DNA from: Methanoculleus bourgensis MS2
Lineage (GTDB): Archaea; Halobacteriota; Methanomicrobia; Methanomicrobiales; Methanoculleaceae
Direction of reading: 5' to 3'
Length of the DNA: 64,000 nucleotides
Assembly: GCF_000304355.2 (NCBI RefSeq)
Contig: NC_018227.2
Span: 2,418,001 to 2,482,000 of the forward strand
A program made the translations under genes and the position numbers. Below are positions 49,327 through 53,385 of the stretch, piece by piece (positions within the stretch are counted from its first letter, which is position 1; each line of letters opens with the position of its first letter). The notes below the pieces were generated by a model. It saw nothing but the letters and a program-made list of their open reading frames with translations, was not told the DNA's origin and searched no databases.

Positions 49327-51993
49327 ATGCCTGCAACAACCAAGTATTCTTCAGAAATGCGTGAACCGGCAGTAAAAAAGATTCTCTACTGGTGCGACAA
49401 CTGCAACGTCCCCCTCATCGGGCGCACCTGCGCGTGCGGTGCCAGGAGCAGGGAGATCCCGCTCCTGCAGCCACATGATGTCCGCCCTGCACTGGCAGCG
49501 GATATGGCCCTTATCCGGAGCCTTCTTGCCGCGCAGTTCGGCGATATCCCCCTGCCGGGAGTCGTGCTCCTGAACAAGACCGGCGGTACCGACAGGGCCG
49601 ACCTCGTGATCGTGCACGGCGACCGGTTCGGCTGGCTCACGTTTGACCCGGTCACCCGGCAGTTCAGCCTCGATATCGCCCCTGAGGCGCTCCCGTACAT
49701 CCTGCCGCATGCAACCCGCGGCATCGTCGACCTCGAGGCAGAGCGTGCCGTGAACGCCCACAAGGGGCGCATCGGCGGGAAACGGTTCCCCTTATCGACC
49801 CCTGTGCCCGACGGGACTGTTATCGTCTCCTACAAAAACCGGTTTGGCACAGGTGTCGTGAAGGACGGGCAGGTCCGGGTGAAGGAACTCGTCCCCGTCG
49901 AGCCCCGGACTCGCCCCGACCCTGGCTGGGACGTGGTGATCGGGAAGAACCGGTATCACCTGAAGAACCTTGAGCGCAACGCAGTCCGCACCATCAGAAA
50001 GCACATGAACGACCGGCCGTGCGTGAACGTATCGTTCTCCGGCGGCAAGGACAGCACCGCCGCCCTCCACCTTGCCCGTAAGGCAGGGGTGGAGAAGGCG
50101 TTCTTCATCGATACCGGGATCGAACTCCCGGAGACGGTGGAGTTCGTGGCGTCGCAGGGCGTCGAGATCATCAGGAAAGGCGGCGACTTTTTCCAGGCGG
50201 TCGAGAAGGCAGGCCCGCCGGGGAAGGACCTCCGCTGGTGCTGCAAACTCCTGAAACTCCACCCCTTAAAGATCTACCTTAGCAGCATCGGCCCCTGTGT
50301 CACCATCCAGGGGAACCGCTGGTACGAGTCCTGGAACCGTGCTGACCTTGACGAGACAAGTCAGAACCCGGCAAACCCCCTGCAGCTGAACGTCTCGCCG
50401 ATACGGAACTGGCGGGCGCTCGAGGTTTTCCTCTACCTCTGGTGGCGCAAGGCCCCCATAAACCCGCTCTATGAGAAGGGGCTTGAGCGGATAGGCTGTT
50501 ATCTCTGCCCGGCGGCACTCGAGAGCGAGTACGAGGGGCTCCGGAAGATGCACCCGGAACTGACCGAACGCTGGGACGGGTTCCTCGAGCGGTGGGCAAA
50601 GAAGACAGGGATGCCGGACGCCTACCACCAGTGGGGGCTCTGGCGGTGGCGGGCGCTGCCGCCGAAGATGCGTGAACTCTGCAGGGACCAGGGCATCCCC
50701 CTCAACGATGACTTTACGTTGCAGGCGGCCCCGGTGAAGGAATTGATAGAGGTGGCAGAGATGGAGACTGCACGATCCTGTGAGCCGGCATCACCGGCAG
50801 GAAAAGAATTTTCCGCAGAAGAGATCCGCCGGGATTTCCCGATCCTTGGCGATATTATCTACCTGGACAACGCTGCGACGAGTTTCTCGCCTGAGCCGGT
50901 GGTAGAGGCACTCGTCGAGTTCGAGCACCGTTACCGGGCCAACGTCGGCAGGGGAATCCACCGCCTGACGCAGATCGCGACCCAGCGCTACTGGCATGCC
51001 CACGAGAAGGTGGCCCGGTTCATCGGCGGGGAAGCGGGCGTCACCATCTTTACGAAGAACACCACGGAAGCGATCAACATGGTTGCGCAGGGGCTCTCCT
51101 GGAAGCCGGGCGACCGTGTGGTGACCACTGTCCTTGAGCACCACTCAAACCTCCTGCCGTGGAGAGCGCTTGGCAAGCAGGGCGTCTCCCTCGACGTGAT
51201 CGGGATCGATGCCGACTACTCGCTTGACCTCGCCGCGCTCGAGGAGACCCTGGAGAGAGGCGGTGTCCGGCTTGTCGCCGTCACCCACGCCTCAAACGTG
51301 CTCGGCGTGACGACGCCGGTCGAGGAGATTGCCGGAATGTGCCAAAAACACGGTGCCCTGCTCCTGGTGGACGCCGCACAGTCTCTGCCGCACATGCCGG
51401 TGGACGTCTCGCGTCTCGGCTGCGACTTCCTCTGCTTCTCGGGGCACAAGGTCTTCGGGCCGACCGGCACCGGTGTTCTCTGGATGCGGGAGGCGATCCT
51501 CGAGCCATCGGTCCTTGGCGGCGGTATGGTCGAGAGCGTGACGGCGGAGGAGTTTGTGCCAGCCGAGGGCTACCAGCGATATGAGGCCGGGACGCCGAAC
51601 GTCGGCGGCGGGATAGCGCTCGGTGTCGCCGTGGACTACCTCTCGACGATCGGGATGGAGAGGATACACCAGTATGAGGAGCGCCTGACCGCCCGACTCA
51701 TCGAAGGGCTCTCCCGGATCGAGGGGGTCAGGGTCTATGCCTCCCGGAGGGCCGGGTCACGCATCGGTGTCGTCTCGTTCACCATCGACGGCCTTCACCC
51801 GCAGGAGGTCGCCCACCTACTCGACGAAGAGGCGGATATTCTGGTGCGGTCGGGGCACCACTGCTGCCAGCCGCTCATGGAGCATCTCGGCCTTCCAAAC
51901 GGGACGGTGCGGGCGAGCCTTGCGGCCTACACAACCGAGCAGGAGATCGACCTCCTTCTTGCGGCCGTCAGCGAGATCAGCCGGGGCAGGTGA
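49327..51993 (+). CDS. Fusion: zinc ribbon-PUA-like-PP-loop reductase (APS-reductase type) + SufS-type cysteine desulfurase
   Basis: 888 residues. Residues 17-38 are a zinc ribbon (CDNC...CACG). About 135-195 resembles a PUA segment (DGTVIVSYKNRFGTGVVKDGQVRV). Residues 205-480 are a PP-loop domain: SFSGGKDSTAALHLA near 237, then Cys305-Cys306 and Cys391-x2-Cys394, the CC...CxxC signature of [4Fe-4S] APS reductases. From about 497 it is a complete class V aminotransferase: YLDNAATS near 511, PLP-lysine 708 in FSGHKVFGPTGTG and the active-site loop RSGHHCCQPLM with Cys846. It would join a sulfur donor and an ATP-dependent activating or reducing site in one chain. A second ATG at 49357 is possible. 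Specific substrate unknown. Confidence 0.88.
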   Translation: MPATTKYSSEMREPAVKKILYWCDNCNVPLIGRTCACGARSREIPLLQPHDVRPALAADMALIRSLLAAQFGDIPLPGVVLLNKTGGTDRADLVIVHGDRFGWLTFDPVTRQFSLDIAPEALPYILPHATRGIVDLEAERAVNAHKGRIGGKRFPLSTPVPDGTVIVSYKNRFGTGVVKDGQVRVKELVPVEPRTRPDPGWDVVIGKNRYHLKNLERNAVRTIRKHMNDRPCVNVSFSGGKDSTAALHLARKAGVEKAFFIDTGIELPETVEFVASQGVEIIRKGGDFFQAVEKAGPPGKDLRWCCKLLKLHPLKIYLSSIGPCVTIQGNRWYESWNRADLDETSQNPANPLQLNVSPIRNWRALEVFLYLWWRKAPINPLYEKGLERIGCYLCPAALESEYEGLRKMHPELTERWDGFLERWAKKTGMPDAYHQWGLWRWRALPPKMRELCRDQGIPLNDDFTLQAAPVKELIEVAEMETARSCEPASPAGKEFSAEEIRRDFPILGDIIYLDNAATSFSPEPVVEALVEFEHRYRANVGRGIHRLTQIATQRYWHAHEKVARFIGGEAGVTIFTKNTTEAINMVAQGLSWKPGDRVVTTVLEHHSNLLPWRALGKQGVSLDVIGIDADYSLDLAALEETLERGGVRLVAVTHASNVLGVTTPVEEIAGMCQKHGALLLVDAAQSLPHMPVDVSRLGCDFLCFSGHKVFGPTGTGVLWMREAILEPSVLGGGMVESVTAEEFVPAEGYQRYEAGTPNVGGGIALGVAVDYLSTIGMERIHQYEERLTARLIEGLSRIEGVRVYASRRAGSRIGVVSFTIDGLHPQEVAHLLDEEADILVRSGHHCCQPLMEHLGLPNGTVRASLAAYTTEQEIDLLLAAVSEISRGR

Positions 51994-52341: not shown

Positions 52342-53100
52342 CTACGCGCCGATCCCTGCTATCCGCTCCGCGTGTGCATAGACTGCTATATCCGGGGTGC
52401 CGGCGGACCCGACAACGCAGAGCCCGGTCTCCTCTGCGACCTCCACGGCAAGGGCGGTCGGAGATCCGGTGGAGATGATCGCCGGGATGTTGGCGAACAG
52501 ACACTTCCTGACCATCTCTGAGGTGATACACCCGGTGCTGACGGCAACTGTCCGGGGGAAGTCGACGGAGTTTTGCAACCCATAACCGATAACCCGGTCG
52601 AGGGCGTTGTGCCGGTCTATATCTTCCGATCTGGCAATGATGCTGCCACCGGCAACGAGGGCGACTGCCTCGATCCTGCCGGCAGGAATGCGGGCATCTG
52701 GAGCGAGGAGGGCGGCGACGGCGGCCGCGATCTCGGGGACGGATATAATGAGATCGGAGTTGATCGTGGGCAGTTTCTCTGTGTCGATGTAGGAGACAGC
52801 CCCCCCGCACCCAGAGAGGATGGTCTTCTTTGTGCTGACCCGCTTGAAGAGGTTCCTGGTAAGGACGCTTATCCGGTTCTCTTCAATCCTGACCGACTCG
52901 ATTTCGTCAACATTCCTGATGATCTCTTCGGTGTAGAGATAGCCGGTGATGAAGTCCTCGAATCTGGCCGGGCTCAGGATCGCAGTCGTCATGTGCCGCC
53001 CGTTGACGAAGATCGCAACCGGCGTCTCCTCGGCGGCATCCTGGGTGGTCTGCCCGGCGGAGCCGTCGTCGATGGGAATACAGGGGATTTTCTTAAACAT
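52342..53100 (-). CDS. fdhD: Formate dehydrogenase sulfurtransferase FdhD
   Basis: 252 residues from the ATG at 53100, with GTGAGG upstream. FdhD hands sulfur to the Mo- or W-bis-pyranopterin cofactor so that formate dehydrogenase becomes active. Family blocks: ETPVAIFVNGRHMTTAILSP, FITGYLYTEEII, DRHNALDRVIGYGL, AVSTGCITSEMVRKC and STGSPTALAVEVAEETG. Where E. coli FdhD has CxxC this protein reads SGCGGAVSY, with only the first Cys. Formate dehydrogenase genes are not in the window. An in-frame ATG at 53154 would add 18 residues. Confidence 0.93.
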   Translation of the reverse strand: MFKKIPCIPIDDGSAGQTTQDAAEETPVAIFVNGRHMTTAILSPARFEDFITGYLYTEEIIRNVDEIESVRIEENRISVLTRNLFKRVSTKKTILSGCGGAVSYIDTEKLPTINSDLIISVPEIAAAVAALLAPDARIPAGRIEAVALVAGGSIIARSEDIDRHNALDRVIGYGLQNSVDFPRTVAVSTGCITSEMVRKCLFANIPAIISTGSPTALAVEVAEETGLCVVGSAGTPDIAVYAHAERIAGIGA

Positions 53101-53385
53101 GGTCCTCACGTTACAGTGCTTGCACGCGGCCCGGGAGTAGGGTCGTTTGTGCATAGAGGTGCACGGTGCAGAACTATAATACCAGGCGTCTCCCCGGGAT
53201 TGGGGATGGAGTGGCCTTGACCGTGCGGGGTACTCTCGATAAAGGGTATCGGTCATGGTAGAGTTGTGTCCTGCGCCTCATGAGCGTTTAGCCCCGGAGG
53301 GTGTCACCAGCCCGCAATTGCCCTGCAACTCCTGCGGGTTCCGTATACTACTTAAGACCTCGCTACTCACTAATCCTGGGTAATT

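Follow-up and report, generated by a model that had tools for sequence, protein, structure and literature searches.

A Conserved Fusion of a PP-Loop Domain and a SufS-Type Cysteine Desulfurase in Methanomicrobiales, a Candidate Sulfur-Delivery Protein Linked to fdhD

Introduction

Which donor first supplies the sulfur of thio-modifications and sulfur-containing cofactors in methanogens is not settled (PMC5372739). In 2024, a fusion of CysH to the cysteine desulfurase SufS was reported in mSystems as cluster 536, which occurs exclusively in Methanomicrobiales with few unfused sets, and it was filed under assimilatory sulfate reduction without a tested function (PMC11237513). In Escherichia coli, FdhD takes its sulfur from a desulfurase: it binds and stimulates IscS, the sulfur source for bis-MGD (PMC6239281).

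Here, we describe a gene from Methanoculleus bourgensis MS2 that evidently belongs to the same protein family as cluster 536. It lies in a 64,000-nucleotide stretch of the chromosome (NC_018227.2, positions 2,418,001 to 2,482,000; the window), to which coordinates refer unless they are marked C1, for the genome. The existence of the fusion is already published; our literature searches turned up no such functional reading of it, no rejection of the CysH label, and no mention of an association with fdhD.

Results and Discussion

Architecture of the Fusion

An earlier note on this DNA had claimed that a single chain joins a PP-loop half, with a Cys pair at 305-306 and a CxxC at 391-394, to a complete SufS-type desulfurase with a PLP lysine (Lys708) and an active-site Cys846, and that the chain also carries a zinc ribbon and a PUA-like region. 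This description stands in all its parts. The plus strand at 49327-51993 is an uninterrupted open reading frame of 888 aa that contains both Pfam domains, PAPS_reduct (PF01507, residues 234-396, E 1.7e-33) and Aminotran_5 (PF00266, residues 511-877, E 1.1e-123), while the minus strand of the same interval is interrupted by stops and has no competing gene. Translation may instead start at Met11 (49357), the point from which most relatives align. From the N to the C terminus, the order is zinc ribbon, pre-PUA/PUA-like region, PP-loop (PAPS_reduct) domain, linker, and SufS-type desulfurase, with the following features:

49327..51993, + strand: fusion gene, Zn-ribbon/PUA-like/PP-loop (PAPS_reduct) plus SufS-type cysteine desulfurase, 888 aa
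49378..49464, + strand: zinc ribbon, residues 18-46 (C23, C26, C35, C37), near-invariant in 78 fusions and the wider family
49465..49896, + strand: pre-PUA and PUA-like region, residues 47-190; PF01472 in homologues; modelled strands E163-169, E172-179, E182-189
49924..50706, + strand: PP-loop ATP-pyrophosphatase domain (PAPS_reduct fold), residues 200-460, by PF01507 and Foldseek
50038..50055, + strand: intact PP-loop motif SGGKDS, residues 238-243, invariant across the whole family
50239..50244, + strand: Cys305-Cys306 dyad (RWCCK), predicted cluster ligands, invariant and aligned with the CC of 2goy
50497..50508, + strand: Cys391-x-x-Cys394 (GCYLC), predicted cluster ligands, invariant and aligned with the GCEPC of 2goy
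50707..50814, + strand: flexible inter-domain linker, residues 461-496, pLDDT <50 at 472-492
50815..51981, + strand: SufS-type cysteine desulfurase domain, residues 497-885, by PF00266 and likeness to 5b7s
51448..51450, + strand: Lys708, PLP lysine (SGHK), in 51/51 fusions
51862..51864, + strand: Cys846, persulfide cysteine (RSGHHC), in 51/51 fusions; RSGxHC is common to stand-alone relatives

The PUA-like region is genuine, though degraded. Pfam PUA has no match in the M. bourgensis protein itself, and PF01472 matches 14 of 50 homologues (best E 5.5e-24). With the zinc ribbon and the PP-loop with its CC and CxxC, this places the N-half close to the archaeal PUA-PAPS_reduct family (PRK13795-like), the PUA feature being seen via homologues; the PRK13795-type NCBIfam model scores 389.7 bits, under its curated equivalog cut-off (745). 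The desulfurase half has the fold-type I PLP domain, SGHK lysine, and RxGxHC active-site Cys of a SufS-type (class II) enzyme, with 46% identity and a Foldseek TM of 0.93 to the T. onnurineus desulfurase 5b7s. It does not reach the NCBIfam TIGR01979 cut-off (419.9 vs 475.1 bits), which is nonetheless its best NCBIfam match, and judged by these features it is a divergent archaeal SufS.

The AlphaFold2 model of the whole chain has a mean pLDDT of 91.5 and is disordered only at the first 13 residues and at residues 472-492. Its pTM of 0.66 goes with this disordered linker: each half is well folded, and the model does not fix their mutual orientation or the placing of Cys846 relative to the PP-loop. 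Modelled alone, the N-half reaches a pLDDT of 92.9 and a pTM of 0.91. Foldseek then matches it to the APR/PAPSR/CysD fold and also to TtuA, NcsA, and LarE, and the matches listed for the whole chain are SufS structures only. Across an alignment of 78 fusions, no variation is seen in the SGGKDS loop or at Cys305, Cys306, Cys391, and Cys394, and in 50 N-halves that include distant, non-fused homologues, SGGKDS, the cluster-type cysteines, and the zinc cysteines remain invariant or nearly so. Mean column conservation is 0.80 for the PP-loop vs 0.75 for SufS. Conservation is lowest in the linker (25-67 residues long in 51 fusions). By their invariance and alignment, the four cysteines are predicted ligands of a [4Fe-4S] cluster. 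Apart from the CC dyad, one Cys of which might be free, the N-half contains no invariant spare Cys for persulfide carriage.

Sulfate Assimilation and DNA Phosphorothioation

By its published name, the protein would be a CysH-type APS/PAPS reductase that carries a desulfurase and serves sulfate assimilation, and the earlier note had likewise called the PP-loop site APS-reductase-like. The likeness itself is genuine: the N-half is homologous through PF01507, its invariant CC and CxxC align with the ligand residues of the Pseudomonas APS reductase 2goy, and the family has been named CysH-SufS (PMC11237513). The main counter-argument to discarding the name is that Methanocaldococcus jannaschii MJ0973, perhaps a distant relative, is reported to have weak APS reductase activity (PMC3448663). 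As a statement of function, however, the description fails. Where the fusion family has an invariant, intact SGGKDS, 2goy has SGAED. The catalytic Cys of ECGLH, known from APR biochemistry, should follow the CxxC and is absent from every family member inspected. ATP sulfurylase (Sat, PF01747) was found in 0/61 relatives with working controls, CysN above cut-off was likewise found in 0/61, and this missing APS supply largely refutes the assignment. We therefore rejected it on the intact SGGKDS, the absent ECGLH Cys, and the lack of ATP sulfurylase in the 61 genomes, and we consider a role in sulfate assimilation highly improbable.

A second known setting for the same pair of domains is DNA phosphorothioation, in which case the protein would be a fused DndA-DndC. 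PADLOC matches the chain to DndA, SspA, BrxP, and, weakly, DndC, and the GxRxxESxxR and GCxxC motifs are common to the fusion and DndC. However, DndC has RWCT rather than RWCC, carries extra cysteines, and is only 23-28% identical. The M. bourgensis genome has no DndD match, on which ground we rejected this candidate, and DndD scored above cut-off in only 5/61 relatives, all of which encode a DndC apart from the fusion; a role of this kind is barely credible. In those five genomes (G012, G017, G038, G046, and G050), the DndD-family gene stands beside that separate DndC and is unrelated to the fusion.

Distribution and History

Full-length fusions are present in loci of Methanoculleus, Methanogenium, Methanofollis, Methanoregula, Methanolinea, Methanospirillum, Methanocalculus, and Methanocorpusculum, and their occurrence in so many genera rules out an assembly artefact. 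On a SufS tree whose rows were labelled fused or solo by ORF length, the fused/unfused state changes 4 times, a pattern that fits one old fusion kept through Methanomicrobiales with few later splits. The earlier note had named separate halves with unrelated roles in relatives as evidence against a joint function; in relatives G060 and G026, the halves are split but still adjacent. Some genomes additionally hold PP-loop-only paralogues.

In the tree built on the PP-loop, the sister group of the fusions is a stand-alone clade whose genes adjoin purH and dnaK (purH and grpE-dnaK-dnaJ in the stand-alone homologues). The next group out consists of ferredoxin-bearing homologues of Methanosarcina/Methanocella-type families (f8 and f14, named from gene content), and a second paralogue forms the far clade. 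The Methanosarcina-type N-half homologues have a C-terminal ferredoxin domain, and several adjoin an Nfn/Sud-like flavoprotein pair and thrS; the ferredoxin in place of SufS, taken with such neighbours, hints at a redox reaction. Genes of another paralogue group, from Methanosarcina-type genomes, adjoin purH and a Cas4-like nuclease gene. We note that M. bourgensis also encodes a second zinc-ribbon-PUA-PP-loop paralogue (C1:2303705-2305208) with the same CC and CxxC and no fused desulfurase, and that this unfused paralogue is present in nearly all Methanomicrobiales genomes searched.

Other Desulfurases

The earlier note's remark that methanogens often lack cysteine desulfurases does not apply to Methanomicrobiales: SufS has been reported in 30/32 genomes of the order, in which SufBC is almost always present and no SufE has been reported (PMC8351635), and three further NifS/IscS-type genes accompany the fusion in M. 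bourgensis. The fusion is the only intact SufS-type enzyme of this genome. Together with the SufBC and SufE pattern, this would suit a house-keeping SufS that supplies Fe-S assembly through SufBC, its fused N-half being incidental or a SufE substitute. Against such a role, no suf gene stood out among the neighbours that recur around the fusion, several relatives retain a separate SufS beside it, and the three NifS/IscS genes are at hand in M. bourgensis; we regard it as improbable. Decayed SufS-like gene remnants at C1:1618201-1618468 (pieces of 84% and 68% identity around stop codons) suggest that a second SufS copy has been lost from this genome.

Gene Neighbourhood

As the earlier note had reported, fdhD lies next door:

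52342..53256, - strand: fdhD, sulfurtransferase/chaperone for formate dehydrogenase, convergent neighbour, PF02634 E 7.3e-52

The association is conserved. Of the fusion loci flanked on each side by at least 2.5 kb, many of which come from one genus and are not independent, 33/54 have fdhD within 3 kb of the fusion, in four relative arrangements; in one relative (locus L060), it is directly downstream. Around non-fused PP-loop homologues, fdhD was found within 3 kb in 0/34 loci, so the linkage follows the SufS half. The four arrangements occur in different families and show repeated rearrangement with the linkage kept. Fusion loci without fdhD are mostly Methanoregula-type and usually have co-directional thiM and thiE, mostly ∼90-160 bp downstream. 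Further neighbours in fusion loci, in place of fdhD or in addition to it, are MoaE, a MoaD/ThiS-like carrier, a ThiF/MoeB-like activator, and LarE. A conserved association with fdhD is what a sulfur donor to FdhD would be expected to have, and the desulfurase probably also serves FdhD and Moco. Sulfur acceptors pair with PLP enzymes elsewhere in this genome as well. A second fdhD follows an IscS-type desulfurase directly on the same strand (C1:470400-472757), so that both fdhD copies are desulfurase-paired, and thiI adjoins a putative Sep-tRNA:Cys-tRNA synthase gene (C1:864008-866584).

These neighbours raise the question of whether it is the desulfurase that does the work, as a donor dedicated to FdhD and to molybdopterin and thiamin synthesis, while the N-half acts on a cofactor or carrier by activating it, or only targets or regulates the desulfurase, and leaves RNA alone. 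FdhD, MoaE, MoaD/ThiS, ThiF, LarE, and ThiM-ThiE all speak for it, as does the pairing of the second FdhD with a desulfurase, and RNA-modification genes were not seen adjoining the fusion. However, the N-half is the better conserved of the two and its ATP site is intact, it also exists unfused, in homologues without linkage to FdhD, and its zinc ribbon and PUA homology indicate nucleic acid. On balance, we find this explanation unlikely, if a good deal more plausible than a house-keeping SufS.

Proposed Function

The reading that we favour, to which we would give about an even chance, is that the fusion combines in one chain a persulfide donor and an ATP-dependent Fe-S thiotransferase, with RNA the most likely acceptor and the desulfurase also serving FdhD, Moco, and thiamin carriers. 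The C-terminal SufS domain would use PLP on Lys708 to take sulfur from L-cysteine and form a persulfide on Cys846, which the flexible linker (∼25-65 residues) would bring to the N-terminal domain. There, the intact SGGKDS PP-loop would activate the acceptor by ATP-driven adenylation, and the predicted [4Fe-4S] site at Cys305/Cys306/Cys391/Cys394 would aid sulfur transfer to it; one Cys of the CC dyad might be free and take the persulfide. The N-terminal domain's likeliest acceptor is RNA, to which the zinc ribbon and PUA-type region point. In parallel, the desulfurase arm may act as a local sulfur donor for FdhD, and so for formate dehydrogenase sulfuration, and may feed the MoaD/ThiS-type carriers used in making molybdopterin and thiamin.

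The invariance of the catalytic residues in both halves is consistent with a thiotransferase, as is the likeness of the N-half fold to the ATP-dependent sulfurtransferases TtuA, NcsA, and LarE, and the lack of a reported SufE in the order (PMC8351635) leaves room for a built-in acceptor. A point against it is that four Cys ligands are predicted vs three in TtuA/NcsA: a fully Cys-ligated cluster has no obvious open iron for bound sulfide. The redox hint from the ferredoxin-bearing homologues, the activity reported for MJ0973, and the shortage of spare invariant cysteines in the N-half also speak against it. The earlier note had proposed a fused persulfide donor and ATP-activating partner for thiolation of an RNA or cofactor. 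The domains, the invariant catalytic residues, and the link to fdhD, conserved in four arrangements, support that proposal in part; a reductase-like function is not supported. For RNA, it is the domain content that suggests a thiolase; the PUA basis for RNA binding would be the decayed PUA-like region, and our literature search for an RNA enzyme of PUA-PAPS_reduct type found nothing direct.

As to which RNA, the M. bourgensis genome encodes a separate ThiI and one NcsA-like enzyme, so that s4U8 and s2U34 already have candidate enzymes. The single PF01171 match in the genome is the NcsA-like gene. We know of no archaeal enzyme for s2C32. This modification has been reported in Archaea, and a review describes only the bacterial TtcA for it (PMC5372739). 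A more specific and tentative version, which we think doubtful as a whole, is a self-contained RNA thiolase with a fully Cys-ligated [4Fe-4S] cluster that uses ATP to modify a specific RNA position (e.g., s2C32) and also charges FdhD, in which case formate dehydrogenase maturation and RNA modification would share one sulfur gate. We offer s2C32 as a lead only.

On the evidence of its sequence, the fusion is real and conserved, probably a sulfur-delivery device, and not the sulfate-assimilation enzyme of its annotation. A fused donor and acceptor would name both sulfur-transfer partners at once, and the CysH/assimilatory sulfate reduction label would need correcting for a large family from organisms in which ATP sulfurylase was not detected. 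The link to fdhD offers a testable route to formate dehydrogenase sulfuration in hydrogenotrophic, formate-using methanogens.

Comparison with Known Systems

The IscS-ThiI pair (tRNA 4-thiouridine; thiamin) resembles the fusion in that a desulfurase feeds a PP-loop enzyme with an RNA-binding domain, and the proposed dual use has a counterpart in E. coli IscS, a single desulfurase that serves ThiI, FdhD, and Moco. IscS and ThiI are, however, separate proteins, with THUMP/rhodanese domains where the fusion has PUA and a zinc ribbon. The tRNA thiolases TtuA/NcsA likewise combine zinc binding, a PP-loop, and a [4Fe-4S] cluster (predicted in the fusion) but have three cluster cysteines and belong to a different family. 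DndA-DndC and SspA-SspD also pair a desulfurase with a PAPS_reduct-type Fe-S PP-loop protein and have SGGKDS, GxRxxES, and GCxxC in common with the fusion; DndC differs in having RWCT where the fusion has RWCC, and the genome that carries the fusion is without dndD. The N-half is homologous to the archaeal PRK13795/PUA-PAPS_reduct proteins (NCBIfam NF010366-NF010369; PRK08557), with which it shares the zinc ribbon, PUA, PP-loop, CC, and CxxC, although Methanosarcina/Methanocella-type members end in a ferredoxin and the fusion ends in SufS. Closest of all is CysH-SufS cluster 536 (PMC11237513), which is evidently the same family; it was filed there as sulfate reduction, whereas the tests reported here favour sulfur transfer.
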